NCBI GenBank assembly: GCA_027021615.1
Contig: JALUTY010000098.1
Span: 1 to 64,000 of the forward strand
DNA: 64,000 nucleotides
Direction of reading: 5' to 3'
Source: a bacterium
Lineage (GTDB): Bacteria; Desulfobacterota; Deferrisomatia; Deferrisomatales; Deferrisomataceae
Shown: one piece after another, positions 69-16,832 of the stretch
Position numbering within the stretch: the first letter of the stretch is position 1
Layout: the number at the start of each line of letters is the position of its first letter
The notes under the pieces: model-generated
Databases searched by the model: none
What the model saw: only the letters and a program-made list of their open reading frames with translations
Told to the model about the DNA's origin: nothing
Position numbers and translations under genes: made by a program

Positions 69-754
<686 letters not shown>

Positions 755-780
755 CCCCCCTCCAGAGGAGAGGCGATCGA

Positions 781-1236
781 ATGGTACACACCCTGCGGCG
801 CACCGTCACGATCTTGGGTCTCGCGGTCTGGTTCCTCACGGCAACGGCCGTGGCCGCCGAGGGCGGCCGATGCGCCAAGTGCGGCATGGCCCTGGCGGGG
901 CACGGCCACACGAGGTTCGAGCTCGTTCTGGCCGACGGCACCCGGGCGGTGACCTGCGGCGTCCAGTGTGGGCTGATGCTCGCGCGATCCCGGGGCGTGC
1001 AGCGGGCCTGGGCCACGGACTTCATCTCCGGCAAACGCATCGACGCCACCCGGGCCTGGTACGTGGTGGGGTCGGCCGCGGTTCCCGACATGGCTCCCGG
1101 CTTGATCGCCTTTGCCAGCCGGGAGGACGCGGAGAGGTTCCGGCAGGGGTTCGGCGGGCGGGTGCTGGACTGGGAGGCCGCCCGGAAGGCCTCGGAAGGC
1201 CCGATGGGCGCTGGGCTGGGGCACCGGTCGAGGTGA
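781..1236 (+). CDS. Exported NosL-like metal-binding protein
   Basis: A 151-residue protein with a hydrophobic signal sequence (about 1-26), then CAKCGM (31-36) and a second cysteine pair C59/C63. CxxCGM plus a later C-x3-C followed by a WYVVGS-type segment is the NosL pattern. NosL proteins are periplasmic Cu(I)-binding proteins first known from nitrous oxide reductase maturation. There is no lipobox cysteine, so unlike classical NosL this one seems cleaved or membrane-tethered rather than lipidated. It starts 27 bases after livF with RBS AGAGGAGA and begins an overlapped operon with an ABC transporter. No nosZ is visible, so a role in copper handling or in another metalloenzyme is inference. 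Confidence 0.75.
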   Translation: MVHTLRRTVTILGLAVWFLTATAVAAEGGRCAKCGMALAGHGHTRFELVLADGTRAVTCGVQCGLMLARSRGVQRAWATDFISGKRIDATRAWYVVGSAAVPDMAPGLIAFASREDAERFRQGFGGRVLDWEAARKASEGPMGAGLGHRSR

Positions 1237-2686: not shown

Positions 2687-3378
2687 TCCCGGTGCGGGCG
2701 GAAGGGGTGGAGAAGGTGTTCCGGTCCCGGGGCGGCCACCGGGTGACGGCCCTGGCGGGGGTGGGCGTGGAGGTGCCTGCCGGCGGGTTCCTGTTCGTGA
2801 CCGGCCCGTCCGGGTCGGGGAAGACCACCCTCCTGCACGTGCTCGCGGGACTCCTCCGGCCCGACCGGGGGGAGGTGTGGTGGGGGGAGGACCGGATCAC
2901 CGGGCTGCCGGAGCCCCGGGTGACCCGGCTGCGCCGGCGGCTCGCGGGGTTCGCCTTCCAGCGCGATCGGTACCTGGAACGGGCCCGGGTGTGGGAGAAC
3001 GTGACCGTCCTGCTGGCGGCGCAGGGGGTCGGCCGCCGGCAGCGGAGGGCCCGGGCCCTGGAGCAGCTCGGCCGCCTGGGGCTGGCGGACTGGGCGGACC
3101 ACTACCCGTGGGAGCTGTCAGGGGGGCAGCGACAGCGGGTGGCCCTGGCCCGGGCCCTGGTCCACGGGCCCGGCGTCCTGTTCGCGGACGAGCCGGCGGC
3201 CCAGGTGGACCCGGACACGGCCGGCCTCGTCGAGGCGGTCCTGCGCGAGGAGAACGCCCGGGGGGTGACGGTGGTGGTGGCGAGCCACGAGGCCCTGGGG
3301 GCAAAGCCGGGGGATCGGATGATCCGTCTCGAGCCCTCCGGCCGGCGAGGTGGTGCGGCGTGGCGTTCGTCCAGTTGA
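2683..3378 (+). CDS. LolD/MacB-type ABC transporter ATP-binding protein
   Basis: A 231-residue ATPase partner of the preceding permease. Walker A is GPSGSGKT (about 41-48) and the signature is LSGGQRQ. Walker B is followed by DEPAAQVD, where LolD-family proteins usually have DEPTGNLD, and the Q-loop reads FQRDRYLE. These are mild departures from consensus but leave the ATPase core intact. It starts in a GTGA overlap with the permease and runs 19 bases into the next gene. In this family ATP binding closes the cytoplasmic dimer and moves the permease's periplasmic domain. Confidence 0.9.
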   Translation: MIPVRAEGVEKVFRSRGGHRVTALAGVGVEVPAGGFLFVTGPSGSGKTTLLHVLAGLLRPDRGEVWWGEDRITGLPEPRVTRLRRRLAGFAFQRDRYLERARVWENVTVLLAAQGVGRRQRRARALEQLGRLGLADWADHYPWELSGGQRQRVALARALVHGPGVLFADEPAAQVDPDTAGLVEAVLREENARGVTVVVASHEALGAKPGDRMIRLEPSGRRGGAAWRSSS

Positions 3379-4331
3379 GCCGGTTCCTGTTCCTGCTCCA
3401 GGCCGTGGTGGCGGCGGCCCTGGTGGCGGCCGGGGCCGTGCGGGGCAGGGATCCGGCCCGGGGCGGGTCGTTGCTGCTGCTCGGCGGGATCGGGGCGATC
3501 GCGGTGCTGGCGGTGTCGGGGGGCGTGCTGTACTATCTCGGGCTGGCGGCCCGGGTCGGGTTCACCCCGGGGGCCATGTGTGTGTTCGGCGTGCTCCGCG
3601 CCGGCCCGCCGGCGCTCCGGTGGGTGGAGGCCGGATTTCCGGCGGTCCTGGTGCTGGCCGGGGCCGGCGCTGCCACCTACCTCTTGGAGCACCGGGCGGG
3701 GGACCCCACGAGCCGGACGGTGCGCGCCGTGCTCGCCGTCGGGGCCCTCGTGGCGTTGGCCCACGCCGGCACGGGGCTGTGGGCGTGGCAGCGCCTCCTG
3801 AACCCGCCCCCGGGGCAGGCGCTTTCGGTGTCGTGCTGTACGACCGTGTTCGACGTGGCCGAGGCGGGGTCGGCCGCCGTGGCCGGGGGAGGGTTCGCTG
3901 CGTGGTGGCTGTGGGGGAGCCTGGCCGCCACCCTGGGGTGCCTGGCGGGTCTGGGCCGGGGCCGGGGGGGCGCGGGGCGCGGGCTCCTGTGGGGGGGAGC
4001 CGTGCTGTCGGCAGGGACGCTCGCCGTTGCGGCGCCGGCCGTGGTGCTGGCGCGGTGGGCGCCGAGAATGATGGGGCTGATCGACCACCACTGCCCGTAC
4101 TGCCTGCTCCAACGGGTCCCGGCCGCGCCGCCGGCGGTGGTGCTGGCCGGTCTGGGCCTGGCCTGCGTGGCCTGGGGGGCCTGGGTGGCACTCGTGGGCT
4201 CGGTTCGCCCGGACCTGCGGGCCGAGGCCGTGCGGATGGAGACGGGGCTGGCCCGGGCGGGGCTGTGGCTGGTTCTCTCGGCCGCCGGGCTGCTGGCGGC
4301 GTACGCCCTGGGTCGGGGGAGCGGGCCGTGA
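3360..4331 (+). CDS. Polytopic membrane protein with a CPYC motif
   Basis: A 323-residue, very hydrophobic protein with about seven or eight predicted membrane helices. A lone cysteine pair in HHCPYCLLQR (about 243-252) sits before a helix, like the CxxC of DsbB/VKOR-type quinone-linked thiol oxidoreductases. Another CC pair occurs near 157-158. The fold cannot be assigned, but a membrane redox centre in an operon with two cysteine-rich NosL-like proteins suggests control of thiol state or metal transfer. GTG start inside the end of the ATPase gene, and a GTGA overlap with the next gene. No family name is claimed. Confidence 0.6.
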   Translation: MAFVQLSRFLFLLQAVVAAALVAAGAVRGRDPARGGSLLLLGGIGAIAVLAVSGGVLYYLGLAARVGFTPGAMCVFGVLRAGPPALRWVEAGFPAVLVLAGAGAATYLLEHRAGDPTSRTVRAVLAVGALVALAHAGTGLWAWQRLLNPPPGQALSVSCCTTVFDVAEAGSAAVAGGGFAAWWLWGSLAATLGCLAGLGRGRGGAGRGLLWGGAVLSAGTLAVAAPAVVLARWAPRMMGLIDHHCPYCLLQRVPAAPPAVVLAGLGLACVAWGAWVALVGSVRPDLRAEAVRMETGLARAGLWLVLSAAGLLAAYALGRGSGP

Positions 4332-4729
4332 GGGGCTGGGCCTGGCCGCTGGTGTTCCTGGCGGCGGTCGCCTTCGGGTTCGGCACCGGTCTTCGGGACC
4401 GGCCGGCAGGGCCGCGGTGCCTGCGGTGCGGCGCTCCTTCGGACACGATCGGCCGGGTGCGGTTCCTGCTGCCCGACGGAACGGACCGGGTGTTCTGCTC
4501 GATCCCGTGCGCACGGGCGGCCGGGATCCCCGAGGGAGCCCGGGTCCGGGTCACCGACGAGGCCACCGGCCAGGAGGTGGACGCGGACGCCGCCTTCTTC
4601 GTGGAGAGCGAGGCGGTGAGCGTGGCCCACAACCGCACCCGGATCCACGCATTCGCCCGCACGACCGATGCCGCGGCTCACCTCGAGGAGCACCGGGGAC
4701 GGTGGGTGCCCAACCCGTTCCGCAGGTGA
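4328..4729 (+). CDS. Second NosL-like protein, membrane-anchored
   Basis: A 133-residue protein with an N-terminal helix (about 5-20), then CLRCGAP (about 32-38), a VFCSIPC cysteine pair (about 58-64) and a DAAFFVES segment comparable with the WVVGS region of NosL. It lacks the methionine of the CxxCGM motif, so its metal site would differ from the NosL-like protein at 781-1236. It closes a five-junction overlapped operon (GTGA with the preceding membrane protein). A pair of complementary NosL-like proteins at the two ends of one transporter operon fits a donor and acceptor pair; that is inference. Confidence 0.65.
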   Translation: MRGWAWPLVFLAAVAFGFGTGLRDRPAGPRCLRCGAPSDTIGRVRFLLPDGTDRVFCSIPCARAAGIPEGARVRVTDEATGQEVDADAAFFVESEAVSVAHNRTRIHAFARTTDAAAHLEEHRGRWVPNPFRR

Positions 4730-4764
4730 GCCGGTCGGCATCCGGGGTGCAGAGGAGGTTCTGT

Positions 4765-5511
4765 GTGACGTCCGAGCCTGAAGAACCGGTCCTGTCGGCC
4801 GAGCCGGACCGCACGGAGGTGCTGCGTCTGCTCGGAATGCACCGCCGCCGCGGAGCGCCCGGGGAGGTCCTGCGGCGGCTGGACGAGCTGTGGGGCGAGG
4901 GGGTCTCGTCGCTCCGGCCCCGGGTGTGGGAGGTCGAGGTCCCCATCCGCGAGGTGGGACGCACAGGGGTGACCGTGGGGGACGGCGTGTTCCTCCGCAG
5001 CCGCCGGCTGGCCCGGGCCCTGGGAGAGGCGGTGCGCGCGAGGGTGTTCGTGGTCACGGTGGGGCACGGCCCCGATCGCCTCATCCAGCGCTGGACCACG
5101 CAAGGCCGCGTTGCCGACGCGTTCTTCCTAGACGCGTTCGCGTCCGCTGCCGTGGAGTCCCTGGTGGAGCGGTACTACCGCTCGACCGCGGAGCTCGCCG
5201 CCGGGCAGGGGCTGGGGGTCACGCTCCGGTTCAGCCCGGGGTACTGCGACTGGCCCGTGCAGGACCAGCGCAGCCTCTTCTCGTTGTTTCGGGACGAGGA
5301 CCTGGGGGTCTCTCTGACCGAGTCCTGCTTCATGACCCCGCGCAAGTCGGTGAGCGGGGTGTTCGGCCTGGCTCCGGCCCAGCCGGGCCGGGTCGGCCCA
5401 CCCCCGGCCTACAACCCGTGCGCGGACTGCGGCAAGCACGACTGCACCGCACGCCGGGCCGCCACGGCTACTCCGGACCCTCCTGCCCCCCTCGAAGGCG
5501 CAGGCCCGTGA
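4765..5511 (+). CDS. Stand-alone vitamin B12-dependent methionine synthase activation-domain protein
   Basis: A 248-residue cytoplasmic protein matching the reactivation (SAM-binding) domain of MetH. The diagnostic stretch is FSPGYCDWPVQDQ, then an LTES motif and MTPRKSVSGVFGL (about 153-198). In MetH this domain binds S-adenosylmethionine and helps re-methylate inactive cob(II)alamin. Stand-alone versions in anaerobes usually serve split MetH or other corrinoid methyltransferases. The last 35 residues add a CADCGKHDC cysteine cluster, possibly an iron-sulfur or zinc site, absent from E. coli MetH. GTG start with RBS AGGAGG eight bases upstream. Its 3' end overlaps the convergent btuF-cbiZ gene by 44 bases. 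Confidence 0.85.
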   Translation: MTSEPEEPVLSAEPDRTEVLRLLGMHRRRGAPGEVLRRLDELWGEGVSSLRPRVWEVEVPIREVGRTGVTVGDGVFLRSRRLARALGEAVRARVFVVTVGHGPDRLIQRWTTQGRVADAFFLDAFASAAVESLVERYYRSTAELAAGQGLGVTLRFSPGYCDWPVQDQRSLFSLFRDEDLGVSLTESCFMTPRKSVSGVFGLAPAQPGRVGPPPAYNPCADCGKHDCTARRAATATPDPPAPLEGAGP

Positions 5512-7471
5512 GCAGGGCGTCCAGGGCCGAACGGAGCACCGGGGGCAGGTCCGGATCGCCGGCCAGGGGCTCGAGCCGGGGCACGGGCCGGCCGGCGATC
5601 TCCGCGGCCACGGCCCGGCACTGGTCCTCGAACCAGGCCGTGTCCGTCACCTGGCCCCGCTCGACCCCGTCGGCAAGCGCCATGGCCCCCTCCAGGAACC
5701 CCGCGTACCGCGGGTCGAGGAGGAGCTCCTCCAGCTCCCCGAGCCGCTCGCGCCGCCCGGCCGGGTCCGGAGCGAGGGCCTGCACCAGGCGGTACGGCGG
5801 GATCCGGCGCTCGTGGAGGCGCACGAGCACGCTCCGGCCCGCCACGATGCCGTTCTGCCGGAGCACGGCCTCGCGCACTCCGGCGTACACCGCCCCGGCG
5901 ATGAGCTGGCCCATGCGGGTGTGTCCCCCGGCGTTGTCGATGGGCACCCCCCGCCCCTCCACCACGATCACGTTGTCCGTGCCCGTGCCCGTGGCCTGCC
6001 ACCGCCGGGGGCGGTAGGCGCTTCGCACGTCCAGGTCCTGGAGGGCGGCGGTCTTGGCCTCGGTGGCCGTGACCACGGCCCGGGCCATGGCCCGGGGCGA
6101 CAGCCGGGCGTTGGCCAGGAGCACCACGTTGATGGTGCCGGGCTCGTAGTAGCGGCCCTCGTCCCGGGAGGTGCGCACGGCGTTGGAGCGCACCCCGGCG
6201 GTCACCAGGGCCACCACGGCCAGGTCCCGGAACGACCGGCGCTGCACCGAGAGGTTCGCCAGGTCCGCGCCGGTGAACAGCAGGCTCGTGGTCCCGGGGT
6301 CGAGCCCCAGCACCCCGAGGGCGAGCCTGCGCATGTCCCCGAGGTCCAGGTGCCACGAGGGCGGGGGCAGGCCGTGGTTGCCCACGGTGGCCACCCCGCT
6401 CCGGGGTCCCTCCAGGGTGGAGAGCACGGCCATGGGCTCGGCCAGGTCCACCACCAGGGTCCGGTGGACCTGGTCCAGGATCCGGCTCTCCACCACCCGG
6501 GCCCGGGCCACGTATTCGAGCCCCAGGTCCAGGGGACGCTCGGAGACCACGGCGTCCGGGGCGAGCCCCGGCGCCCCCGGCGAGAACCGGTCGGGGTACA
6601 GGGCCGACGCGAGCCACGCCGTGAAGTAGCCCGTGTTGGTGGCGGCCCGGCAGGTGAGCACGCACGGGAAGAACCGGAGGCGCCCCTCCCGCACCGCCTC
6701 CACGTCCCGCCACCCGGGCCGGTGGAGCAGGCGCTCCAGGGGCTCCCGGTCCGTGCCGCACCCGTACACCACCTGGGGGTCGAAGGCCTGCCACTCCTCC
6801 AGGGTGACCGGCACCACGGCGCCGGTCTTGCCGAGCCGGGGCGGGACGCCCCCGGCCCGCCGGATGATCTCGTTCTGGAACGAGTCGTCCCCCGGGGTCA
6901 TCACCGCGTCCCGGCCCATGAACCGCATCACCCGGAGCCGCCGCTCCGGGGGGATACCCCCCACCCGGGCCTCCACCGCACGGAAGTACCCGTCGTTCTT
7001 GGCGATCAGCTCCTCGGCCTCGGCCTCCCGGCCGAACACCCGGCCGAGGAGCTCCAGGGTCTGCCGGGCCTCGGCCAGGGTCCGGGGCCCCAGCTCCGCC
7101 AGGGGGCAGCCCAGGCCGGCCAGGGCCTCCCGCAGGCCGCGGTGCAGGGGCGACAGGATCACCAGGTCGGGCCGGGCCGCGCGCACGGCCGCGGCCGAAG
7201 GGGAGGAGAACCCGCCCACCACGGGTTTCCCGGCCGCCCCGGGGGGGTAGGTGTCGTGCCACGTGACCGCCCGGAGCCGGTCGGCCGCGCCGAGCCGCAC
7301 GATCATCTCGGTGACCGCGGGCACCACGCACACCACCCGCTCGGGCGGGGCCCGGAGCACCACCTCCCGCCCCGAGGCGTCCTCGAACCGTACGGGGTAC
7401 GCCGCCAGGGCGGAGGTCGCGAGCAAGAGGGCGGCAGCCGCCCACGCGAGGGGTCGTGGAAAGCGAACCAT
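5468..7471 (-). CDS. Exported BtuF-CbiZ fusion: corrinoid-binding protein joined to adenosylcobinamide amidohydrolase
   Basis: A 667-residue protein with a clear signal peptide (1 to about 26, ending SALA). Residues about 27-330 are a BtuF/FepB-type periplasmic binding protein (PERVVCVVPAVTEMIV, WHDTYPPG, PDLVILSP). Residues about 340-560 are a CbiZ domain (VTAGVRSNA near 424, EPGTINVVLL, GTGTDNVIV near 499). CbiZ cleaves the amide linking the nucleotide loop to the corrin ring, so incoming corrinoids such as pseudo-B12 can be rebuilt; it is normally cytoplasmic. The remaining 100 residues are helical and unassigned. The start is ATG 7471, with RBS CCAGGAGGACCCC; an upstream in-frame extension lacks an RBS and would bury the signal peptide. 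It is the last gene of the corrinoid cluster. Confidence 0.87.
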   Translation of the reverse strand: MVRFPRPLAWAAAALLLATSALAAYPVRFEDASGREVVLRAPPERVVCVVPAVTEMIVRLGAADRLRAVTWHDTYPPGAAGKPVVGGFSSPSAAAVRAARPDLVILSPLHRGLREALAGLGCPLAELGPRTLAEARQTLELLGRVFGREAEAEELIAKNDGYFRAVEARVGGIPPERRLRVMRFMGRDAVMTPGDDSFQNEIIRRAGGVPPRLGKTGAVVPVTLEEWQAFDPQVVYGCGTDREPLERLLHRPGWRDVEAVREGRLRFFPCVLTCRAATNTGYFTAWLASALYPDRFSPGAPGLAPDAVVSERPLDLGLEYVARARVVESRILDQVHRTLVVDLAEPMAVLSTLEGPRSGVATVGNHGLPPPSWHLDLGDMRRLALGVLGLDPGTTSLLFTGADLANLSVQRRSFRDLAVVALVTAGVRSNAVRTSRDEGRYYEPGTINVVLLANARLSPRAMARAVVTATEAKTAALQDLDVRSAYRPRRWQATGTGTDNVIVVEGRGVPIDNAGGHTRMGQLIAGAVYAGVREAVLRQNGIVAGRSVLVRLHERRIPPYRLVQALAPDPAGRRERLGELEELLLDPRYAGFLEGAMALADGVERGQVTDTAWFEDQCRAVAAEIAGRPVPRLEPLAGDPDLPPVLRSALDALLTGLRLRGGQEGPE

Positions 7472-7531
7472 GGGGTCCTCCTGGAAAGCCTCGTCAGGCC
7501 CCTGTGGGTTGGGGCACTGGGGAAGGGTAAC

Positions 7532-7559
7532 TCCGGTCTCCGGTCGACGGTCATCGGTC
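7532..7559 (-). repeat. Heptamer array, 4 units (GACCGNN)
   Basis: Read on the minus strand, four consecutive seven-base units GACCGAT, GACCGTC, GACCGGA and GACCGGA lie 60 bases upstream of btuF-cbiZ. The same period-7 GACCGNN pattern recurs at 33427, 35450, 37310 and 57526, always between genes. Confidence 0.8.
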
Positions 7560-7718
7560 CCCGGTATATCTGCGCTCGTGACGGCACCGGCCTGCGGCAA
7601 CGTCAAGGCCGAAGTTGCTGTTTCGCAAACAGGCCGCTTCGCGGCCTACCGGAGCTGAATCCTGTCCACGGGTAAGGCCGCACGCGGCGCTCCAGTAAAC
7701 CCCATGCTCTCCGGACCA

Positions 7719-7834
7719 TGAGGAGAGGCATGGTGATGCCTAGGACGTGTGGGAATCCGGGAGGCTTTCAAGCCTTCTAGCCTTCCAGCCTTCCAGCCTT
7801 CCAGCCTCCCAGCGTCCCAGCGGGCCGAAGGCCC
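7719..7834 (-). repeat. Octamer array with flanking conserved block
   Basis: Seven eight-base units (AGCCTTCT, then three AGCCTTCC, AGCCTCCC, AGCGTCCC, AGCGGGCC) run from 7771 to 7826. The last unit leads into a GGGCCGAAGGCCC hairpin. On the other side lies a block containing a GGCATCACCATGCCTCT-like sequence in reverse, shared with 23525-23560 and, more diverged, 57145-57180. Confidence 0.8.
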
Positions 7835-7860
7835 CGAGTTCCCGGGAAAGGGGTTCGATC

Positions 7861-10800
7861 TCACCGCCGCCGGGCCCCGAGCCCGAAGAAGGCGAGCAGG
7901 GCGAGCACGAACACGGCGGCCAGCCACTGGACCCCGCTGGAGCTCAGCCGGGTGGTCTCGGCCGGGTCCTTGACCTCCTCCATGCGGTAGCCCTCGACCC
8001 GCTCCCGGTTCTCGCCGGGCCGGTCGGCGGGTTTGCGGGCCTCCGGGCCGGCCTCGGGCTCCGGGGGCCGTTCGGGAGCCGCGTCGGCCCGGAACCCGGC
8101 CTCCACCCGGGCCACGGCCTTTTTCACGGCCTCGGCCCGGAGCTCCAGGGTCTGGCCGGTGGCCCGCTCCACCGCCAGCTTGAACTCCCGCACGAGCTCG
8201 GGGGCCATGACCCCGGGCACCGAGAGCACGTTGACGATCATCTGGTTGAGCAGGGGATTGTTGCAGGTGTGGTCGCAGCACGCCACCCCGTGCTGGAGCA
8301 GGTTGGTGGCGTGCTCCACGGCGAGCCGGCGCACCACGGCCGGGTCCGCGTCCCAGTACCCCTTGCGCACCGCCTCGAGCATCCGGGCCGTGATGGACTG
8401 GTAGGCCCAGGGGTTGGCCTTCTCGAAGAACGCCTTGAGGCCCAGGCCCCGGTCGTCCTCCACGTACACCCGGTAGGTCTCCTCCCACCGGTCCTTCCCC
8501 ACGGCCGCCGGCGTCGTGACCTGCCACCCCCACAGGTACTCCACGAACTTCTCGATCTCCCGGGCCCCGGCGTAGCCCTCGGCCTCCATGCCCTCGATCC
8601 ACCGGGGGTTCCAGTACCGGGCCCGCAGCTCCGTGCCCAGGGTCCGGGCCAGGTCCTCGACGCGACCCTGGCCCCGGACCCGCTGCATCGAGACGAACAC
8701 GTCCGGGTCCTTCCCCGACGCCCGGCGCACGGCCATGCTCAGGGCGCCCAGGTACTGGAACATGTCGTCGTTGTCCAGGGTGCCGTACAGGTTGCTTGAA
8801 ATGGAGTGCACGGTGGCGTCCACCCCGGCGAGCTGGTCCCGGTACACCCCGGTGAGCCTGCGGCCCCAGAACTCCGACGAGTAGGCGAACGAGACCCGCT
8901 CGATGAACGCGTCCGCGATGGTGTCGGGGTCCTCCCACTGGCCGCTCGCCGCGGTCATCTGGGAGACCTGGGTGCCGTAGGCCCCGGGCTCGGCCGAGAA
9001 CAGGCGCACGGTGGAGAGCCTGCGGGCCTCCTCCGGGTCCACCCCCCGGCGGATCAGGGCCTCCCGGAGCCGCTCGGTGTTGCGGCGCACGTAGTTCTCC
9101 ACGTCGGTGAGCGCCGCGGCCTGCTTCACGGCCCGGTCCAGCAGCAGGGCCACGGCGGGGAAGGTGTCCCGGAACAGGCCCGACATCTGGAGGAGCACGT
9201 CCACCCGGGGCCGGCCCAGGGCGGCGCCAGGGATGGGCTCGACCCCGGTCACCTTGTCCCGGTGGTCCCACACCGGGCGCATGCCCATGAGGTGCAGGGC
9301 CTGGGCCACGTCGATCCCCTCGTCCCGGATCGTCTCCACGGACCACAGCACGATCCCCACCCGGTCCGGGAACGCGCCGTCGTGCTTCGCCCGGTAGTTC
9401 CGGATCAGGTCCTCGGCCGCCTTGCGGCCGGCGGCGTAGGCCTCCCGGGAGGGGACCTTGTCCGGGTCGAACCCGTAGAAGTTCCGGCCGGTGGGCAGAC
9501 TCTCCGGGTTGCGCACCGGGTCGTTGCCCGGCCCGGGCGGCACGTAGCCCCCCCGCAGGGCCCGCACCAGCCGGTCGAGCTCGGCCGGGCCGCAGGCCTC
9601 GAGGCGCTCGGCCACCGCCCGGGCCGGCTCGCCCCCGTGCTCGGCGATGGCCTCGGCCGTCTCCCGGAGGGCCTCGCCCGAGGGAGACTCGCCGAAAGTG
9701 TGGAGGCCGTAGGGCACGAACTCGGTGCGAAGGGCCATCAGGTGGTGCTCCAGGGTCTCGAGGCCGTCGGCGTCGAGCTCGGCGATGCCGAGCTCCTTCA
9801 TGAGCCCGGTCTGCCGGGCCAGGCGGCGGATGCGCTCCAGGCGCTCGTCGCGCACCCGGTGGGAGGAGGCCGCCCGGTACTCGCTGATCAGGCTCGCCAG
9901 GGTGGCGGTCTCCCGGTACAGCCCCGCCCGCCGGAACGGCGGGGTGGCGTGGTCCACCACCGCGGCCCGGCCCCGGCGCTTGGCCTGGATCCCCTCGCCC
10001 ACGTCGTCCACGATGTAGGGGTACACGCTGGGGATGTCCCCCAGGAGCACCTCGGGGGGGCACGCGGGGGAGAGCCCCGCCTGCTTGCCCGGGAGCCACT
10101 CGTGGGTGCCGTGGGTCCCCAGGCTGATCAGGGCGTCGGGCCGGAGCTCGTGCTGGAGCCACAGGTAGAACGCCACGTACTGGTGGTGGGGGTAGAGCGT
10201 GGTGCTGTGGAACAGCTTCTCCGGGTCGTCGGCCCAGCCCCGGGAGGGCTGGGGCCCGAGCCACAGGTTGCCCAGGCGCACCACGGGCAGGACGAACGCC
10301 CCGTCCTTGACCATGATGGTGGAGCCCTCGGGCGGGCCCCAGTCCCTCTCCACCCCGGCCACGAACCTGGGGGGCAGGTCCCGGAGCCACTCCCGGTACC
10401 GGGCGACGGGCACGGTGACCACGTCGCCCCGGGCCATCAGCCGGTCCAGCTCCCCCGGGGCCCAGGACCCGATGTTCCGGGCCCCCTTCATCAGGAGGTC
10501 CTGGACCAGGTCCTCGGAGATCCGGCCGTCCCCCACGTCGTAGCCTTCCCGGCGCAGCCGCTCCAGGATGCGGGTGATGCTCCGGAACACGTTGAGGTAG
10601 CTGGCGCCGATGTTCTGCTTGCCCGCCCCGTGGTTGTAGAACATCAGGAACAGTCGCTTGTCCCGGTTCGGGGTGGTGCGGAGGGCGTGCCACCGGGCGG
10701 CGCGCCGGGCCAGGCGCTCCACCTGGGTGGCCACCGGCACGTAGGCGTACCCGATCTCCCGGCCCGCCTGGTCGGTCACCGGCTCCTTGACCCCCACCAC

Positions 10801-11796
10801 CGTGGGCTCGATCAGGCCGGTGAGCTCCGGCGTGGAGAACTGGAGGGCGATCTCCGCCGGGGACATCCCCCGGGGGGAGGCGGCCCACGCGTCCCCGGGG
10901 GTGAAGAACAGGTACTGGGCGTTCAGAACGGGCACGTCGGTGCGGTCGAGCACCGACAGGAGGTCGCTCGAGAGGATCGAGCTGAAGGTCAGGTTGAACG
11001 CCGTGACCGACCCCAGGCGCGCGTCCAGGGGGGGGCTGGAAACGAGCCGGGCGAAGTGCTCCGTGCCCGCGGTGGTGAACGAGCCCGCCAGCACGGCCAC
11101 GTTGATCCCACGGCGCTCGTAGGCGCGCACCAGGGCGTCCAGGGGCGCCCGCTTGCCCTCGATCACGTAGGTGGGAAACGCCGTCACCAGGCTCCACAGG
11201 GCCCCTTCCCTCATGTGGCCGGAGGACCGGTACCAGGCCAGGTACCCGTCCATGTCCGGGAACGGGCCGGGGGCGTCGGGGTGGTACAGGAAGGTGTCGG
11301 GGGGCAGGTCCGGGGGCTCGTGGTCCGCGGTCACCCCCAGGTCCCGGGCTGCGACGAGCCGCACCAGGTTGCGGACGTTGGCCTCGGAGGGGAACGCGTA
11401 GTAGGCCCGCACCCCGGGGTCGAACCGGAACCCCGCGTCCACGAACGGCTGGTTGGCCGAGGCGGTGCGCACCGCGTAGAGCCGGGCGCCGGGTTTCACC
11501 CGGTCGGCGTGCTCCAGGAGCCATTGGCCGGGCTGGCGGTGCATGATGTCCACCACGGCCGCGTCCATGCGGCCCACGAACGCCTCGAACGCCGGGGTGC
11601 CCGCGTCCCGGCCGGTGAACACCCGCACCTCCAGGCCCGGGAGGTCCAGGTCCTCCACGGCCCGGTGGCAGGTGTAGGCGTCGGAGTCGCCCACGAACAG
11701 GCCCAGGCGCCGGGGCCCGGCCCCGGCGGCCACGGACGCCAGGGCGAGAGACCCCAGAAGCCCCGGCATGACGAACGGAATCCAGCGGGTTCTCAT
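7861..11796 (-). CDS. cobN: Exported, membrane-anchored CobN-type chelatase large subunit
   Basis: A 1311-residue CobN/ChlH-family protein. The family's large subunit binds the tetrapyrrole for cobalt (CobN) or magnesium (ChlH) insertion. The hallmark GTHGTHEWLPGKQ lies near residues 555-570, and a conserved late motif ACCDHTCNNPLLNQ near 1170 adds cysteines. Two features are unusual. An N-terminal signal sequence (MRTRWIPFVMPGLLG, cleaved near AGA) is present. A proline/glutamate-rich linker also leads to one C-terminal helix with an arginine tail, so nearly the whole enzyme should sit in the periplasm anchored at its C-terminus. Cytoplasmic CobN needs the AAA+ pair CobS/CobT, which is absent from this cluster. 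The start is ATG 11796; an extension to 11826 would displace the signal. Metal and direction of reaction are unknown. Confidence 0.88.
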   Translation of the reverse strand: MRTRWIPFVMPGLLGSLALASVAAGAGPRRLGLFVGDSDAYTCHRAVEDLDLPGLEVRVFTGRDAGTPAFEAFVGRMDAAVVDIMHRQPGQWLLEHADRVKPGARLYAVRTASANQPFVDAGFRFDPGVRAYYAFPSEANVRNLVRLVAARDLGVTADHEPPDLPPDTFLYHPDAPGPFPDMDGYLAWYRSSGHMREGALWSLVTAFPTYVIEGKRAPLDALVRAYERRGINVAVLAGSFTTAGTEHFARLVSSPPLDARLGSVTAFNLTFSSILSSDLLSVLDRTDVPVLNAQYLFFTPGDAWAASPRGMSPAEIALQFSTPELTGLIEPTVVGVKEPVTDQAGREIGYAYVPVATQVERLARRAARWHALRTTPNRDKRLFLMFYNHGAGKQNIGASYLNVFRSITRILERLRREGYDVGDGRISEDLVQDLLMKGARNIGSWAPGELDRLMARGDVVTVPVARYREWLRDLPPRFVAGVERDWGPPEGSTIMVKDGAFVLPVVRLGNLWLGPQPSRGWADDPEKLFHSTTLYPHHQYVAFYLWLQHELRPDALISLGTHGTHEWLPGKQAGLSPACPPEVLLGDIPSVYPYIVDDVGEGIQAKRRGRAAVVDHATPPFRRAGLYRETATLASLISEYRAASSHRVRDERLERIRRLARQTGLMKELGIAELDADGLETLEHHLMALRTEFVPYGLHTFGESPSGEALRETAEAIAEHGGEPARAVAERLEACGPAELDRLVRALRGGYVPPGPGNDPVRNPESLPTGRNFYGFDPDKVPSREAYAAGRKAAEDLIRNYRAKHDGAFPDRVGIVLWSVETIRDEGIDVAQALHLMGMRPVWDHRDKVTGVEPIPGAALGRPRVDVLLQMSGLFRDTFPAVALLLDRAVKQAAALTDVENYVRRNTERLREALIRRGVDPEEARRLSTVRLFSAEPGAYGTQVSQMTAASGQWEDPDTIADAFIERVSFAYSSEFWGRRLTGVYRDQLAGVDATVHSISSNLYGTLDNDDMFQYLGALSMAVRRASGKDPDVFVSMQRVRGQGRVEDLARTLGTELRARYWNPRWIEGMEAEGYAGAREIEKFVEYLWGWQVTTPAAVGKDRWEETYRVYVEDDRGLGLKAFFEKANPWAYQSITARMLEAVRKGYWDADPAVVRRLAVEHATNLLQHGVACCDHTCNNPLLNQMIVNVLSVPGVMAPELVREFKLAVERATGQTLELRAEAVKKAVARVEAGFRADAAPERPPEPEAGPEARKPADRPGENRERVEGYRMEEVKDPAETTRLSSSGVQWLAAVFVLALLAFFGLGARRR

Positions 11797-11923
11797 CAAG
11801 CCGCCTTTGGGTCGGGACTTCGACAAAGGTCCGGACGCCGGCCCCTTCCCGGGTGTGTCACGGTGAAGGAATGGGGGGCCAAAAGCCCGGGGAAGGAGGC
11901 CGGCTTCCGGATTCGGTCTGCGG

Positions 11924-13822
11924 TCAGAACACCACCTCGTACCCCACCCGCACCAGGCGGGGCAGGCCGTAGTAGACGTACCGGTTCGTGGTGTCGGAGG
12001 TCTTGTCCCCGGACACCTCCACCTCCTGGTCGAACAGGTTGTCCACGGCCACCGTCAGGTAACCCTTGTACAGGCGCACCTCGACCCCGGCGTTCACCGT
12101 GGCGACGTCGTCCAGGTCCCGCTCCCTGCTCGTCTGGAGCACGGTGGACACGTCGGCCCGGCACCGGTCGCCGTCGTAGGACAGGGTGACGGAGCTCTGG
12201 TGCTTGGGGCCCGACTGGTACGGGTTGTCGTTGGTGTCCTCGGCCACGGGGTTGGCCCAGCACCCCGCCCAGGCCAGGGAGAGGCGCCCGAGCGGGTCGC
12301 CCCGGCCGGCAAAGGGCGCGAGCAGCAGGTTCCACTCGATCCCCGTGGACTCGAACGCGCCCGCGTTGAAGTAGGTGAGGGGGTAGCCCTGGGACCGGTC
12401 GATCTCGATCTTGTCGGTGTAGTCCATGCGGAACGCGGCCAGCCGCAGGGAGGCCCGGTCGGTGTCGAGCTTGATCCCCGCCTCGTAGGTCCACCCCTCC
12501 TCGGGGTCGAGGCCGGGGTTCCCCACGAGGAAGCTGCTCTCGTAGTAGAGGTTGTTGAACGTGGGGGCCCGGAAGGCCTTGCCCGCGTTGGCGAAAAGGT
12601 TCAGGGCCCGGGTCACGCGGAGGGTGACGCCGGCGCTCGGCAGGAGCTCGGCGTAGTCGTCGCCGGCGGCGTCGGAGCAGATCCACTGCTCCCGGGCGCC
12701 CAGCACGAGGGTTAGGCGGTCCGCCAAGGTGGCCTTGGCCTGGAGGAACAGGGCGTAGTCGTTTCGCTGGTGGGCGCCGTACTTGTTCAGGTAGTTCACC
12801 CACCGGTGGACCGCCTCGCCGCCCACAGTGATCTCGGCCGGGCCGGCGGCGAACCGGTAGTCCGCCGTCACCCCCGAGTTGGCGTGCTTGTCCTTGTCGG
12901 TGGGCTTTTCGGGCTTGGTGTACTCGTCCCGCACCAGGTAGCCCCAGTTGAAGAAGCCCTTGGCCCGCAGGGACTCGCGCTCCCACCGCACGTCGCCGGC
13001 GAACCGGTAGTACTCCTGGTCGGTGCCCTTGGAAAGCTCGCCGCTGTCCTCGATCTTCTTGAAAGCGGTCGTGTCGTAGCTCCCCAGCAGGTCCACGATC
13101 AGCCCCTCCAGCGGGGTCAGCGTCAGGTTGCCCGAGTACCGGTTGGTGGTGCCCTGGTCGTACCGGTACCCCTTGGTGAAGCTCCGGGAGATCGCCTTGA
13201 GCCGGCCCATGTGGCGGTATTGGACCCCGGCGGCCAGCAGGCGGTTCGAGAACGAGGCGCCGTGGCTCTGGTACGCGTAGTCCCCGAGCTCGGCCGAGAC
13301 CCGGGCCCGGGGCTTGCGGGTCGTCGTCTTCGTGATGATGTTGATCACCCCGGTCATGGCGTCGGAGCCGTACAGGGTGGAGGCGGCGCCCTTGAGGATC
13401 TCGACCCGCTCCACCTGGTCCAGGGGGATGGTGTCGAGGTCGTAGGAGCGGCTCGCCGCGTTCTGGACGGGCACGCCGTTGACGAGGACGAGTTCCCCGC
13501 CGTAGATCCCCCGGACTACCACCTCGCTGTTCATTCCCCCGTGGGTGACGCCGATGGGGCTGAAGGCCTTGTACCCGAGTCCCCCGATGCGGCGCAGGGC
13601 CTCCACCACGTTGTCCGCTCCGGTGCGGCGGAGCTCCTCGGCCGTGACCACCGTCACGAACCGGGGGCTCTCCCGCTCCTCCACCGGGAACTTCTCGGCG
13701 GTGACCGTGACCGGCGCGAGCAGGACGGGGGCGGCCGGGGCCTCGGCGGCCGCGGCCGGGAGGCCTGCGGCCCAGCCCAGGCCGCAGGCGAGGAGCAGGG
13801 TCCAAGCGATCCTTCGGTTCAT
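11924..13822 (-). CDS. TonB-dependent outer-membrane receptor, BtuB type
   Basis: A 632-residue outer-membrane beta-barrel with signal peptide (1 to about 26), TonB box-like PVTVTAEK shortly after, a plug domain (NVVEALRRIGG, GGELVLVNGVPV, VERVEILKGAAST, LYGSDAMTGVINIITK) and a C-terminus ending in aromatic-rich YEVVF, the usual barrel insertion signal. Size and plug resemble BtuB, and the riboswitch-controlled operon supports corrinoid or a related tetrapyrrole or cobalt chelate as substrate. Good RBS AAGGAGG. No canonical tonB is visible in the operon; the ExbB-like/DUF2149-like pair upstream could energise this receptor, or CobN, or both. Confidence 0.88.
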   Translation of the reverse strand: MNRRIAWTLLLACGLGWAAGLPAAAAEAPAAPVLLAPVTVTAEKFPVEERESPRFVTVVTAEELRRTGADNVVEALRRIGGLGYKAFSPIGVTHGGMNSEVVVRGIYGGELVLVNGVPVQNAASRSYDLDTIPLDQVERVEILKGAASTLYGSDAMTGVINIITKTTTRKPRARVSAELGDYAYQSHGASFSNRLLAAGVQYRHMGRLKAISRSFTKGYRYDQGTTNRYSGNLTLTPLEGLIVDLLGSYDTTAFKKIEDSGELSKGTDQEYYRFAGDVRWERESLRAKGFFNWGYLVRDEYTKPEKPTDKDKHANSGVTADYRFAAGPAEITVGGEAVHRWVNYLNKYGAHQRNDYALFLQAKATLADRLTLVLGAREQWICSDAAGDDYAELLPSAGVTLRVTRALNLFANAGKAFRAPTFNNLYYESSFLVGNPGLDPEEGWTYEAGIKLDTDRASLRLAAFRMDYTDKIEIDRSQGYPLTYFNAGAFESTGIEWNLLLAPFAGRGDPLGRLSLAWAGCWANPVAEDTNDNPYQSGPKHQSSVTLSYDGDRCRADVSTVLQTSRERDLDDVATVNAGVEVRLYKGYLTVAVDNLFDQEVEVSGDKTSDTTNRYVYYGLPRLVRVGYEVVF

Positions 13823-13891
13823 GGCGTTTCCTCCTTCCTCCCCCAAGACAATGGCAAGACGATCAAACTCACCGGCGGGCTTCGGTCGCCG

Positions 13892-14230
13892 TCACTCCGG
13901 CACGTACACCACGGTGCCGTTCTCCAGGCGGTAGGCCGTGCCGAGCCGCTCCCCCCGGCCCTCGACCCGGTCGCGGGTGGCCCGCAGGGCCTTCACCCGT
14001 GTGCCCTTTTTCGTGATGATCTCCAGCTCCCCCTCCGGCCCTTTCTTCAGGATGGTGACCTCCGAGCGCGGGTCGAACAGGTCCTGCATCCGGTACACGG
14101 CAAACAGGGTCATCAGGAGCCCCACGATGAACACGAGCCCGATGTCGAACAGGTTGGCGAGCCCTGTCAGGGGATCCGCATCCCCGGTCTCAGACAGAAG
14201 CCGCCTTCGGTTTCTCGACAGGTAGCGCAT
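13892..14230 (-). CDS. DUF2149-like ExbD-analogue, single-helix stator subunit
   Basis: A 112-residue protein with a positively charged N-terminus, one membrane helix (about 28-50) and a periplasmic beta-rich tail. The segment NLFDIGLVFIVGLL carries an aspartate at the start of the helix, matching the essential proton-path aspartate of ExbD/TolR (their PLID-type motif). Together with the adjacent ExbB-like gene this is very likely a proton-driven motor pair. I assign the DUF2149 family from memory of its association with CobN and MotA/TolQ/ExbB genes, especially in methanogens. Start ATG 14230 is chosen for RBS GAGGAGG; the gene overlaps the ExbB-like gene by 41 bases. Confidence 0.7.
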   Translation of the reverse strand: MRYLSRNRRRLLSETGDADPLTGLANLFDIGLVFIVGLLMTLFAVYRMQDLFDPRSEVTILKKGPEGELEIITKKGTRVKALRATRDRVEGRGERLGTAYRLENGTVVYVPE

Positions 14231-14831
14231 CGGCCTCCTCACGGGCTCCGGGGCTGTGGGTCAGGATCTCGGTGGCCAGCTCCAGCTCCTTTGCGTCCTC
14301 CTCGGCCCACCGGGCCCGCACGGTGTAGATGTAGTAGGCCAGGGTGCCCTGGGCCAGTCCCACCACGGTGGTGGTGAACGCGATGACCAGGTCGGTGGAG
14401 AGCCTCGCCATGTCCCCCTGGCCCAGGGCGGCGAGCCCGGTGCCCATGGGGATCAGGGTGCCCATGAGCCCCAGGCTCGGACCCACCCGGATCACCAGCC
14501 GGACCCGGTCCAGGGAGGGCCGGAGGCTCAGGATGTGATCCTGGAGCAGACTCTCCACCCGGACCTCCCGCAGGTCCTCCTCGGCCTGCAGGAGCTCCCG
14601 CAGCCGGCTCACGTAGGCGCGCACGGCAGGGGACTCCTCAGCGAACGAGGTTCCTCCCTGGGGCCCGGGGCGCGTCCGGCGCCGCCGGGCACGGTCCAGC
14701 CCCTCGGCCAGGAACGAGCCGGCGCAGGTGAGCATGTACAGGGTCAGGAGGACGAGGAGCGCGAGCACGGGGTAGAGGAGGGAGCTCGAGACCACGTAGA
14801 TGAAACTCTTGAGCACGGCGCCTAGATTCAT
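14190..14831 (-). CDS. MotA/TolQ/ExbB-family proton channel protein
   Basis: A 213-residue protein with three membrane helices (about 7-40, 115-140 and 150-178) and a cytoplasmic loop between the first two, the TolQ/ExbB arrangement. The signature VGPSLGLMGTLIPMGTGLAAL and the following FTTTVVGL carry the threonines that line the proton path in ExbB. Such proteins form pentamers around two ExbD-like helices and turn proton flow into mechanical work on a periplasmic partner. ATG start, overlapping the DUF2162-like stop by four bases. Its place between a membrane protein and the CobN/BtuB genes suggests it drives one of those. Confidence 0.88.
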   Translation of the reverse strand: MNLGAVLKSFIYVVSSSLLYPVLALLVLLTLYMLTCAGSFLAEGLDRARRRRTRPGPQGGTSFAEESPAVRAYVSRLRELLQAEEDLREVRVESLLQDHILSLRPSLDRVRLVIRVGPSLGLMGTLIPMGTGLAALGQGDMARLSTDLVIAFTTTVVGLAQGTLAYYIYTVRARWAEEDAKELELATEILTHSPGAREEADALPVEKPKAASV

Positions 14832-15577
14832 GGGGATCTCCTCCGCAGCCGAGCGGCCCAGCGGGCCCAGCCCACGAGAAACGCGACGGTCAAGGCGGTC
14901 CAGGTGGTCCGGGCGTGGGACGGGGGTATCGGAGCCGCCCTGCCGGTGTGGGAGGCGAGACGGTAGACCCCCTCGATGTCCCCGAACTGGGGCATGATCA
15001 CCACGGCCGCGAGAAAGTAGGCCCCGATCCCGACCATGGCCCACCCCAGGGTGCGCTCGGGGGCCGAGCGTGCGCGCCGTCGACTTGTCAGAATCACGGC
15101 GGCCGTGGCTCCGGCCACCCCGACGAAGGTCCCGTACGCCCCTGCCACCGCCCAGGCCGCGGTCCCGGGAAGCAGGGCCACCAGGAAGCCGGTGATCAGC
15201 AGGACCACGGTGAGGCACACCGGGCACGGGACCACCAGGAGCCAGTGGGCCCGGGTGGGCCGGGCCGCGGCGGCGGGCTGGTGCAGGAGTCGCACGCCCC
15301 AGACGAGAAGCCCGGCGGCGAGCACCAGATGCACCGTCATACCCGAGGCCACGAGCCTTTGGATCCGGGGCAGGTGCGTCGCCGGGTCCAGGCGTGGGGC
15401 AACGGCCAGGGCTCCTGCGAACAGGGCGGCGTAGGCGGCCGCGAAGCCGGCGGCCACGAGGACGCGACGGCCGGCACCTCGGGTCCGCTCCAGGGCGTAG
15501 GCCAGGCCCACCCCGCCCTTGGCGGCGAAAGCGCCGGTGGCGAACAGGATGCCGAGGACGAGGCTCTTGATCTCCAT
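14828..15577 (-). CDS. DUF2162-like predicted membrane transporter
   Basis: A 249-residue polytopic membrane protein with about six helices and a PCPVCLTVVLLI motif (about 121-132) inside the membrane. The pattern matches the DUF2162 putative transporter family, which I recall as a neighbour of CobN and DUF2149 genes. Paired cysteines and the operon position suggest passage of a metal ion or a small tetrapyrrole precursor, but no substrate is established. Start ATG 15577 is preceded by GGAGATCC. Stop and start overlap (ATGA) with the ExbB-like gene. Confidence 0.65.
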   Translation of the reverse strand: MEIKSLVLGILFATGAFAAKGGVGLAYALERTRGAGRRVLVAAGFAAAYAALFAGALAVAPRLDPATHLPRIQRLVASGMTVHLVLAAGLLVWGVRLLHQPAAAARPTRAHWLLVVPCPVCLTVVLLITGFLVALLPGTAAWAVAGAYGTFVGVAGATAAVILTSRRRARSAPERTLGWAMVGIGAYFLAAVVIMPQFGDIEGVYRLASHTGRAAPIPPSHARTTWTALTVAFLVGWARWAARLRRRSP

Positions 15578-15595
15578 GGGCTGGGATCTCCGGAC

Positions 15596-16477
15596 CTACA
15601 GGCGGTCCATGGCCGTTTGGATCTCGTCGACGAACACGGCCACCGCCTCGGGCACGAAGCCGAGCCCTCGGTACAGCTCGGAGTCACCGAACCGGACGGT
15701 GGGCATGTCCACCCGCTTGCCGGCCGCCTCCAGCTCGGAGCGCCAGCTCCCCTTGCCGTTCTCTCCCATCACGTCGTTCATGACGTGGTCGCCGGCCACG
15801 ACCATGAGCGGGATGAACCGCACCCGTTCTCCGGGGTGGACCAGGGCAGCGGTCAGCGTGTCGTCGGGGGGCACCACGCCCTCCACCATTCCCAGATAGG
15901 TGTTGGGGTGGTGACGCGCCAGCGTCCGTTCCAGGCCCAGATAGACGGCGTTGGCACCGGAGGCCGTGGAGGGGGTGCCGTGGGCCACCAACACGTTGCA
16001 TCCCTCGTCCGGGGGCAGGAAGTCGTGGGACAGGGCGCCGAGGAGACGGTGGAGGCTCTTCCAACGGTGGAGCAAGGTGCCCCCCACCTCCGTGCGGAGC
16101 CCGGGAAAGCCGGCCACCGTGGCCAGGAGCCGGTCGTACATCTCGCCGGGGACCACGTAGAGGGGCTGGACCACGGCCCGGGTGAACCCGTCGGCCTGCA
16201 GCTCGGCCAGGGCCTCGGGTACGCTGCGAAGCCGGGTTTCCGGGGAGCGGCTGGTGTTGAGCTTCTTTCGGATCCGGTCGGAGGCGTAGGCCCACCGGAT
16301 CTCGTGGCCGGGAAGCCTTCGGCAGAGCTCGCGGTCGAGGAAGGAGAAGGTGAGGGAGGCCCGGGTAGTGGTCCCAAAGGCCACGGTCAGGACGGCGGGA
16401 GCGGTCGGCTCCCGGCCGTCGGGGCGGGCTCCCCGAACCGGACAGACGGGTCCACGAACTGTCGTTCTCGGGCTCAC
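15596..16477 (-). CDS. cbiK: Anaerobic sirohydrochlorin cobaltochelatase CbiK
   Basis: A 293-residue class II chelatase that inserts Co(II) into sirohydrochlorin at the start of anaerobic cobalamin synthesis without ATP. The three metal-site residues of characterised CbiK are present: histidine in VAHGT (about 164), glutamate in MVEG (about 197) and histidine in AGDHVMND (about 231). No signal peptide is seen, unlike the periplasmic CbiK of Desulfovibrio, so this copy should be cytoplasmic. An N-terminal extension of about 28 residues is proline/arginine-rich and unassigned. GTG start with RBS GGGAGG. It is the first gene after the riboswitch. No other cobalamin biosynthesis genes lie in the window. 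Confidence 0.9.
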   Translation of the reverse strand: MSPRTTVRGPVCPVRGARPDGREPTAPAVLTVAFGTTTRASLTFSFLDRELCRRLPGHEIRWAYASDRIRKKLNTSRSPETRLRSVPEALAELQADGFTRAVVQPLYVVPGEMYDRLLATVAGFPGLRTEVGGTLLHRWKSLHRLLGALSHDFLPPDEGCNVLVAHGTPSTASGANAVYLGLERTLARHHPNTYLGMVEGVVPPDDTLTAALVHPGERVRFIPLMVVAGDHVMNDVMGENGKGSWRSELEAAGKRVDMPTVRFGDSELYRGLGFVPEAVAVFVDEIQTAMDRL

Positions 16478-16527
16478 GGCGTGTCCTCCCGGGTCCCGGA
16501 GACAGGGGAGGGGCAGCCGCGGCCACG

Positions 16528-16558
16528 AAAAAAGCCCGCACGACGAAGTGCGGGCTTT
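16528..16558 (-). terminator. Rho-independent terminator in the riboswitch leader
   Basis: On the minus strand an 11-bp perfect stem (AAAGCCCGCAC pairing with GTGCGGGCTTT) with a 6-base loop is followed by a run of U. It lies between the cobalamin riboswitch and cbiK, where an expression-platform terminator is expected. Confidence 0.88.
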
Positions 16559-16620
16559 CCGTATTCAAAGCGCCATCGGATTCCCCACCCTCCCATGCCC
16601 CGGGGAGTTGCGGTGGGTTG

Positions 16621-16797
16621 CTACGCCGGCAGGTCTTCTGGCTCGCGATTCGTCCTCAGGACCGCCTTCCCAGCCGTATCCGGCCAGTGGCGTCATGGTC
16701 CTTCGTCCTCGCTCACAGCGGCGGGTCCGCGGGGGATTCTCACCCCTCTTCCCTTTTCAGCCCTCTCGGGCACCGGCGCGCGTCCTATGAAATTGTT
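16621..16797 (-). promoter_or_regulatory. Cobalamin riboswitch
   Basis: Read on the minus strand, the leader has the order typical of B12 riboswitches: a GGTGAGAATCCC segment (reverse of 16733-16746), GCCACTG (16685-16691), GGGAAGG and the B12 box AGCCAGAAGACCTGCC (16628-16643, one base off consensus). It starts just after a strong promoter and is followed by a terminator before cbiK. Cobalamin binding should favour termination and lower expression of the whole downstream cluster. I cannot tell which cobalamin form it prefers. Confidence 0.93.
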
Positions 16798-16803
16798 CGC
16801 CGG

Positions 16804-16832
16804 TTTATAGGGGAAACCGGGCGCCGTGTCAA
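16804..16832 (-). promoter_or_regulatory. Sigma-70 promoter of the corrinoid operon
   Basis: Minus strand TTGACA (16827-16832), a 17-base spacer and TATAAA (16804-16809). Predicted start near 16797 gives a transcript that begins at the riboswitch. Near-perfect hexamers are striking in this GC-rich background. Confidence 0.85.

Follow-up and report, generated by a model that had tools for sequence, protein, structure and literature searches.

HmuS of Bacteroides thetaiotaomicron is a membrane-bound CobN-like protein that converts heme to protoporphyrin IX and Fe(II) (PMC12583661), and the hmu operon also encodes HmuU, a member of the ExbB family, and HmuV, a DUF2149 protein (PMC10434189). HmuU and HmuV (HmuUV) have been assigned to powering the outer-membrane receptor HmuR (PMC12583661, PMC10100974). 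Bacteroides fragilis has hmu-like operons with a cobalamin riboswitch, which were remarked to perhaps concern cobalamin (PMC10100974); a plasmid-encoded CobN without CobST was noted in Trichlorobacter lovleyi in 2012 (PMC3403914); and PA1922–PA1925 of Pseudomonas aeruginosa, in the zinc-starvation Zur regulon, comprise a receptor, a CobN-like protein, an "ExbD," and a DUF2149 protein (PMC4542158, PMC9431628). In the open literature, we found no proposal of a proton motor for a chelatase. Here, we analyzed a 64,000-nucleotide stretch (64 kb; hereafter the window) of a Deferrisomataceae bacterium (phylum Desulfobacterota; GenBank assembly GCA_027021615.1, contig JALUTY010000098.1, positions 1–64,000), in which an exported, C-terminally anchored CobN-like protein is encoded together with ExbB-like and DUF2149 proteins behind a cobalamin riboswitch. 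The system is a relative of hmuRSTUV in a cobalt and B12 context and is therefore not undescribed in kind; a preliminary description of the locus had pointed to no experimental description, but HmuS is a described relative. The new evidence concerns the motor, and comparison of sequences and loci makes a strong case that the exported proteins use a different one from their soluble counterparts.

The cluster is encoded on the minus strand and runs riboswitch, cbiK, DUF2162, ExbB-like, DUF2149, TonB-dependent receptor, cobN, and btuF-cbiZ, exactly as first listed in the preliminary description; coordinates below are window positions on this strand unless marked (+). The genes are closely packed, with the ExbB-like start overlapping the DUF2162 stop and the ExbB-like and DUF2149 genes overlapping each other, and the entire cluster is kept in a same-genus genome whose CobN is 98% identical. 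CobN (7861–11796; PF02514, CobN-Mg_chel, 1056 bits) is the only CobN found in the host genome by profile search. It starts with MRTRWIPFVMPGLLGSLALASVAAGA, and at its C-terminus RRR follows a hydrophobic stretch; the signal peptide (about residues 1–26; 11719–11796) and the C-terminal membrane anchor (about residues 1289–1306; 7879–7932) were called from the sequence with crude in-house hydropathy scoring rather than a trained predictor. The ExbB-like proton-channel subunit (14190–14831; PF01618, MotA_ExbB, 38 bits against a cut-off of 22.9) belongs, by alignment, to a distinct subfamily with the motif GPmLGLmGTLIPmGpaL. DUF2149 (13892–14242, starting at GTG 14242 or ATG 14230; PF09919, 95 bits) has, according to the alignment and a predicted model, one transmembrane helix with an invariant Asp33 at the helix start, and a β-rich domain. 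This Asp falls on the ExbD Asp in a weak, non-significant profile alignment. The cluster encodes no TonB, and elsewhere the host genome has five ExbD-domain and five TonB-domain matches.

DUF2149 and CobN were searched independently across 247 genomes from the phylum of the window. Surrounding regions of up to 20 kb each were examined for most CobN loci, CobN was classed by its ends, and only loci with 5 kb or more of sequence on each side of CobN (complete loci) were counted. DUF2149 was present in 17/17 complete loci of exported, anchored CobN, and an AAA+/VWA (ChlI/ChlD-type) ATPase in 0/17, whereas the corresponding numbers for soluble CobN were 0/26 and 18/26 (Fisher's exact test, 2e-12 for DUF2149 and 3e-6 for the ATPase; 2 of the 17 loci come from the window and its congener, and the genomes are related to one another). 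Eight exported-CobN loci without DUF2149 each lay within about 3 kb of a contig end. Three loci were kept out of the soluble class, namely, L085, which was just below the hydropathy cut-off, and L080 and L095, which were truncated at contig ends. CobT (CobT_C) was not found in the host genome by a single-family profile search, on which all genome-wide absences here rest, and CobS was not searched genome-wide. This two-way swap of partners suggests, without proving it, that the exported enzyme is proton-driven and strips metal from imported molecules. The central idea of the preliminary description, that the ExbB-like/DUF2149 pair takes the place of CobST or ChlID, is supported by the distribution of both partners; the co-occurrence held in every complete exported locus of the phylum sample, and the opposite arrangement, an exported CobN without the pair, was encountered once, in Cupriavidus campinensis (see below).

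All exported CobN proteins form one clade in a FastTree phylogeny (local support 99), apart from soluble CobN and BchH. The clade spans the window, the phylum sample, archaea, the HmuS type, and sequences from Runella, Azospirillum, Pseudoalteromonas, Diaphorobacter, and Cupriavidus. HmuS is its earliest branch, and L085 CobN from the phylum sample closely matches T. lovleyi CobN in the tree. HmuS (PDB 9D26) is also the best PDB match of the window CobN. The superfamily histidines (in GTHG and FHS) are kept in the window CobN, and Ser, Tyr, and Asp occupy the positions of HmuS Q1198, W1202, and H1209, with Phe at the axial ligand H254. The window CobN also carries a CCDHTC motif (residues 1173–1178; 8263–8280), which its conservation marks as a possible metal-receiving site. 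CCxHxC was found in 26/28 exported bacterial CobN, 13/17 archaeal CobN (three of the four archaeal rows without it are truncated where the retrieved region stops), and 0/44 soluble CobN. In non-heme exported CobN, CCxHTC lies between the chelatase domain and the anchor, and it is absent from all three HmuS-type rows of the alignment; the motif is perhaps a site where metal is handed over. Two separate observations concern soluble CobN. At loci L110–L139, it has the Cys-rich motifs FGCCCYF and SCTDYY at the site of DNDD in exported CobN, and in C. campinensis (L284:7395–16480) a CobW-like frame, a soluble CobN, and a VWA protein come after the exported CobN.

Archaeal genomes were reached with the 16S probe GGCTCGCTTCACGGCTTCCCT, and DUF2149 was present in 24 of the 37 searched. 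Among 34 archaeal loci, 14 have long CobN frames and two more have CobN pieces adjoining DUF2162–ExbB–DUF2149, and the archaeal CobN typically bears an N-terminal signal and a C-terminal anchor. The TonB-receptor profile had no match in these 34 loci. Methanosarcinales, which have no outer membrane, carry the DUF2162–ExbB–DUF2149–CobN set; the methanogen grouping mentioned in the preliminary description is real. In three Methanosarcinales loci (L248, L250, and L254), tandem CobN-like genes follow ExbB–DUF2149, the second of which runs off the retrieved region. Other archaeal loci (L256, L265, L266, and L268–L271) have CobN-less ExbB–DUF2149 near large exported proteins, one of them an S-layer protein, and an anaerobic methanotrophic archaea (ANME)-type genome (G260) has seven DUF2149 copies.

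The surroundings of the window CobN concern cobalt and B12. The cobalamin riboswitch aptamer (16611–16792; RF00174, 118.1 bits against a gathering score of 31.5, E 5e-29) is the sole Rfam match in the window. Between the aptamer and cbiK, direct folding revealed a hairpin with a 13-bp stem followed by a T-run (16529–16560; −21.9 kcal/mol, z −5.2), unreported by an automatic terminator scan, which looks like the terminator of the riboswitch expression platform. CbiK, the cobalt chelatase for sirohydrochlorin (15596–16477; PF06180, 123 bits), has no signal peptide and should therefore be cytoplasmic. The DUF2162 multi-transmembrane protein (14828–15577; PF09930, 115 bits) has an invariant K20 and PCPxC (117–121) in the alignment, and its predicted model shows seven long helices (predicted local distance difference test score (pLDDT) 87). 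The TonB-dependent outer-membrane receptor (11924–13822; PF00593, 138 bits; PF07715, Plug, 86 bits) is of the BtuB/siderophore type; it scores below the NCBIfam BtuB cut-off and best with siderophore-receptor models. The last gene (5468–7471) encodes a fusion of a BtuF-type substrate-binding domain (PF01497, Peripla_BP_2, 76 bits) and the corrinoid amidohydrolase CbiZ (PF01955, 180 bits), and the protein begins with MVRFPRPLAWAAAALLLATSALA and has an evident signal peptide. Convergent with the cluster, a gene at 4750–5511 (+) encodes a methionine-synthase activation domain (PF02965, 36.5 bits), which is also B12-related, and frames at 652–1236 (+) and 3350–4729 (+) contain the CxxC-bearing stretches GRCAKCGMALAGHGHTRFEL and RCLRCGAPSDTIGRVRF, which by eye recall NosL-like metal-binding proteins.

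A cobalamin riboswitch was present in 14/17 complete exported loci and in 3/8 sampled soluble-CobN loci. CbiK lies close by in several exported-CobN loci, and signal-bearing BtuF-CbiZ in about 13 loci, including the window; an apparent DUF2149-BtuF-CbiZ fusion (L070, 778 amino acids) was rejected because its reading frame crosses a stretch of N. The host genome also encodes CbiC and a second CbiK, the latter just downstream of one of three further cobalamin riboswitches (on C30; the others are on C18 and C96 of G000; L305–L307). Riboswitches in this genome precede a TonB receptor with a BtuF-type gene, and ATP-binding cassette, tetrapyrrole methylase, and FecCD genes, among them those of a BtuC/BtuD-type transporter. 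Elsewhere, the surroundings concern other metals. In Runella, hypABF and hypCDE flank the set, a nickel-hydrogenase context in which a NicO-like permease takes the DUF2162 position, and in Azospirillum nikR is nearby and a cobalamin riboswitch lies just downstream of DUF2149. The exported-CobN set looks like one core in metal-specific surroundings, which suggests that DUF2162 is a metal importer.

We propose, with a probability of roughly 0.45, that the window encodes a B12-repressed cobalt-scavenging system in which a proton-driven extracytoplasmic dechelatase passes corrinoid cobalt to CbiK. When adenosylcobalamin is scarce, the riboswitch would permit transcription of the operon, and the receptor, energized by TonB-ExbBD encoded elsewhere, would import a corrinoid or another cobalt tetrapyrrole to the periplasm. 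BtuF-CbiZ would bind the corrinoid and could trim its nucleotide tail. The anchored CobN, working like HmuS as a class I chelatase in reverse, would then extract the cobalt, with proton flow through the ExbB-like/DUF2149 pair supplying the force instead of an AAA+ motor (CobST/ChlID). DUF2162 would then import the released cobalt, which may reach it by way of the CCxHTC motif, and CbiK would insert the metal into sirohydrochlorin for new B12. Of these steps, extraction of cobalt from a corrin and force transmission are the weakest. The preliminary description had allowed CobN to load, unload, or reshape a cobalt tetrapyrrole; unloading now appears likelier than the other two.

Several points weigh against this proposal. 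We found no description of an enzyme that extracts cobalt from corrinoids and know of none that removes cobalt from a corrin, a chemically hard reaction. DUF2149 is not detectably ExbD-like beyond the transmembrane segment (profile comparison and Foldseek against PDB were non-significant), and DUF2162 has no solved relative by fold in a Foldseek search of PDB; the ExbD likeness of the former and the transport role of the latter are therefore unproven. In some archaea, ExbB–DUF2149 without DUF2162 occurs without CobN, and the pair may therefore be a general envelope motor for which chelatase work is one use. On a C. campinensis plasmid, the exported, anchored CobN has no pair within 8 kb, the only stretch searched. 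Finally, purified HmuS is active with NADH and without HmuUV (PMC12583661), indicating that in vitro the reaction can sometimes proceed without a motor; tighter metals, turnover, or substrate release may require one.

The cobalt might instead stay in the ring, with the CobN-like protein acting as a proton-powered machine for corrinoid binding and hand-over that holds, remodels, or releases the ring for CbiZ and import. The BtuF-CbiZ of the operon fits such corrinoid salvage, the window CobN lacks His1209, Trp1202, Gln1198, and the axial His254 of HmuS, and a chaperone-like role has been considered for Porphyromonas gingivalis HmuS (PMC13227078). However, the presence of CbiK and DUF2162 in the operon suggests free cobalt, the GTHG and FHS histidines are kept, CCxHTC fits a released metal, and a role in metal supply agrees with the nickel and zinc surroundings of relatives. 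We regard a hand-over machine as unlikely.

The published assignment of HmuUV would make the pair an alternative ExbB/ExbD that energizes the outer-membrane receptor while the CobN-like protein works passively. Membership in the ExbB family is in line with this role, as is the receptor found in 16/17 complete exported loci. However, a receptor also adjoins soluble CobN in 18/26 complete loci, without the pair, and its presence therefore does not explain the pair; conversely, the pair is present at L079 without a receptor within 8 kb. The set lacks TonB, and canonical ExbD and TonB are encoded elsewhere in the host genome; a separate canonical ExbD was found in seven sampled exported-CobN loci, and the T. 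lovleyi operon has a canonical ExbB-ExbD-TonB besides the pair. Moreover, the same set occurs in archaea that lack an outer membrane. DUF2149 distances showed a partial r of 0.75 with CobN given the receptor and −0.01 with the receptor given CobN, which is supporting evidence only, because the pairs are non-independent and the receptor evolves faster. Based on the receptor-free archaeal sets, the loci with a separate ExbD, and these distances, we argue that the pair belongs to and tracks the chelatase, not the receptor, contrary to the published assignment, and we find an energizer of the receptor improbable.

A comparably doubtful explanation retains metal removal but changes the substrate: the machine would strip cobalt, nickel, or zinc from non-tetrapyrrole metallophores or porphyrins, and here from a cobalt chelate other than corrinoids. 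Some relatives stand in nickel (hyp genes and nikR) or zinc (Zur; PMC4542158, PMC9431628) contexts in which corrins are unexpected, and the siderophore-type scores of the receptor would agree with such a substrate. By contrast, corrinoids are the substrates of CbiZ, which is encoded in exported form here and in 12 related loci. To our knowledge, all PF02514 proteins of known function handle tetrapyrroles. That the pair powers periplasmic insertion of cobalt into a metal-free ring is highly improbable: CobN and ChlH are metal-inserting and the window CobN keeps an Asp at the HmuS His1209 position, but the sole characterized exported relative removes metal, the CbiK of the same operon already inserts cobalt early, and CbiC and the second CbiK indicate an early-insertion pathway in the host.

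Extending the proposal of a proton-driven dechelatase beyond the window, we tentatively suggest, as a possibility short of an even chance, that class I chelatases switched motors, ExbB/DUF2149 replacing the AAA+ ring where there is no ATP and driving metal removal; the riboswitch-controlled branch would extract corrinoid cobalt, and the same core would serve iron, cobalt, nickel, and zinc, also in archaea without an outer membrane. The system opens to direct test the question of how an enzyme could work where ATP is absent when its relatives depend on an AAA+ ATPase. If the pair drives the chelatase, the published role of HmuU and HmuV in powering the heme receptor would need revision, and if corrinoids do yield cobalt, B12-type cofactors would be a cobalt source and not a vitamin alone. 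For annotation, the partner swap gives a simple rule: where DUF2149 is a neighbor, an exported "cobaltochelatase CobN" is not to be taken for an enzyme of B12 biosynthesis.

Of the known systems, hmuYRSTUV of Bacteroidota shares with the window an exported, anchored CobN-like protein of the same clade, an ExbB-like protein, DUF2149, and a TonB receptor, whereas the window has the riboswitch, CbiK, BtuF-CbiZ, and DUF2162 instead of HmuY and HmuT, and HmuT lacks the PCPxC motif of DUF2162. Unlike HmuS, the window CobN lacks the HmuS-specific active-site and axial residues and has CCxHTC. The BtuS family and the riboswitch-bearing B. fragilis operons also have CobN-like proteins predicted to be both exported and anchored, and a B12 riboswitch in front of an hmu-like operon (PMC6460266, PMC10100974), but neither CbiK nor an exported CbiZ was described there and no motor was proposed. 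The pSZ77 plasmid of T. lovleyi SZ combines the receptor, DUF2162, ExbB-like protein, DUF2149, and CobN with two upstream cobalamin riboswitches (PMC3403914); it differs in a separate canonical exbB-exbD-tonB-receptor set directly after and in the absence of cbiK and cbiZ from inside the set. PA1922–PA1925 likewise unite a receptor, a CobN-like protein, an ExbB/ExbD-type protein, and DUF2149 in one operon, which is zinc-controlled and was likened to the window by its published description, not by sequence. CobNST and ChlHID share the PF02514 catalytic subunit and superfamily histidines with the window, whose CobN is exported and anchored and belongs to a class without an AAA+/VWA partner in its loci. 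Finally, like ExbB-ExbD-TonB, the window pair combines a MotA/TolQ/ExbB-family subunit and a partner with one transmembrane helix and an invariant Asp at the helix start, but it has a distinct ExbB subfamily, a DUF2149 domain without a significant match to ExbD, no TonB, and an anchored chelatase as its putative partner.

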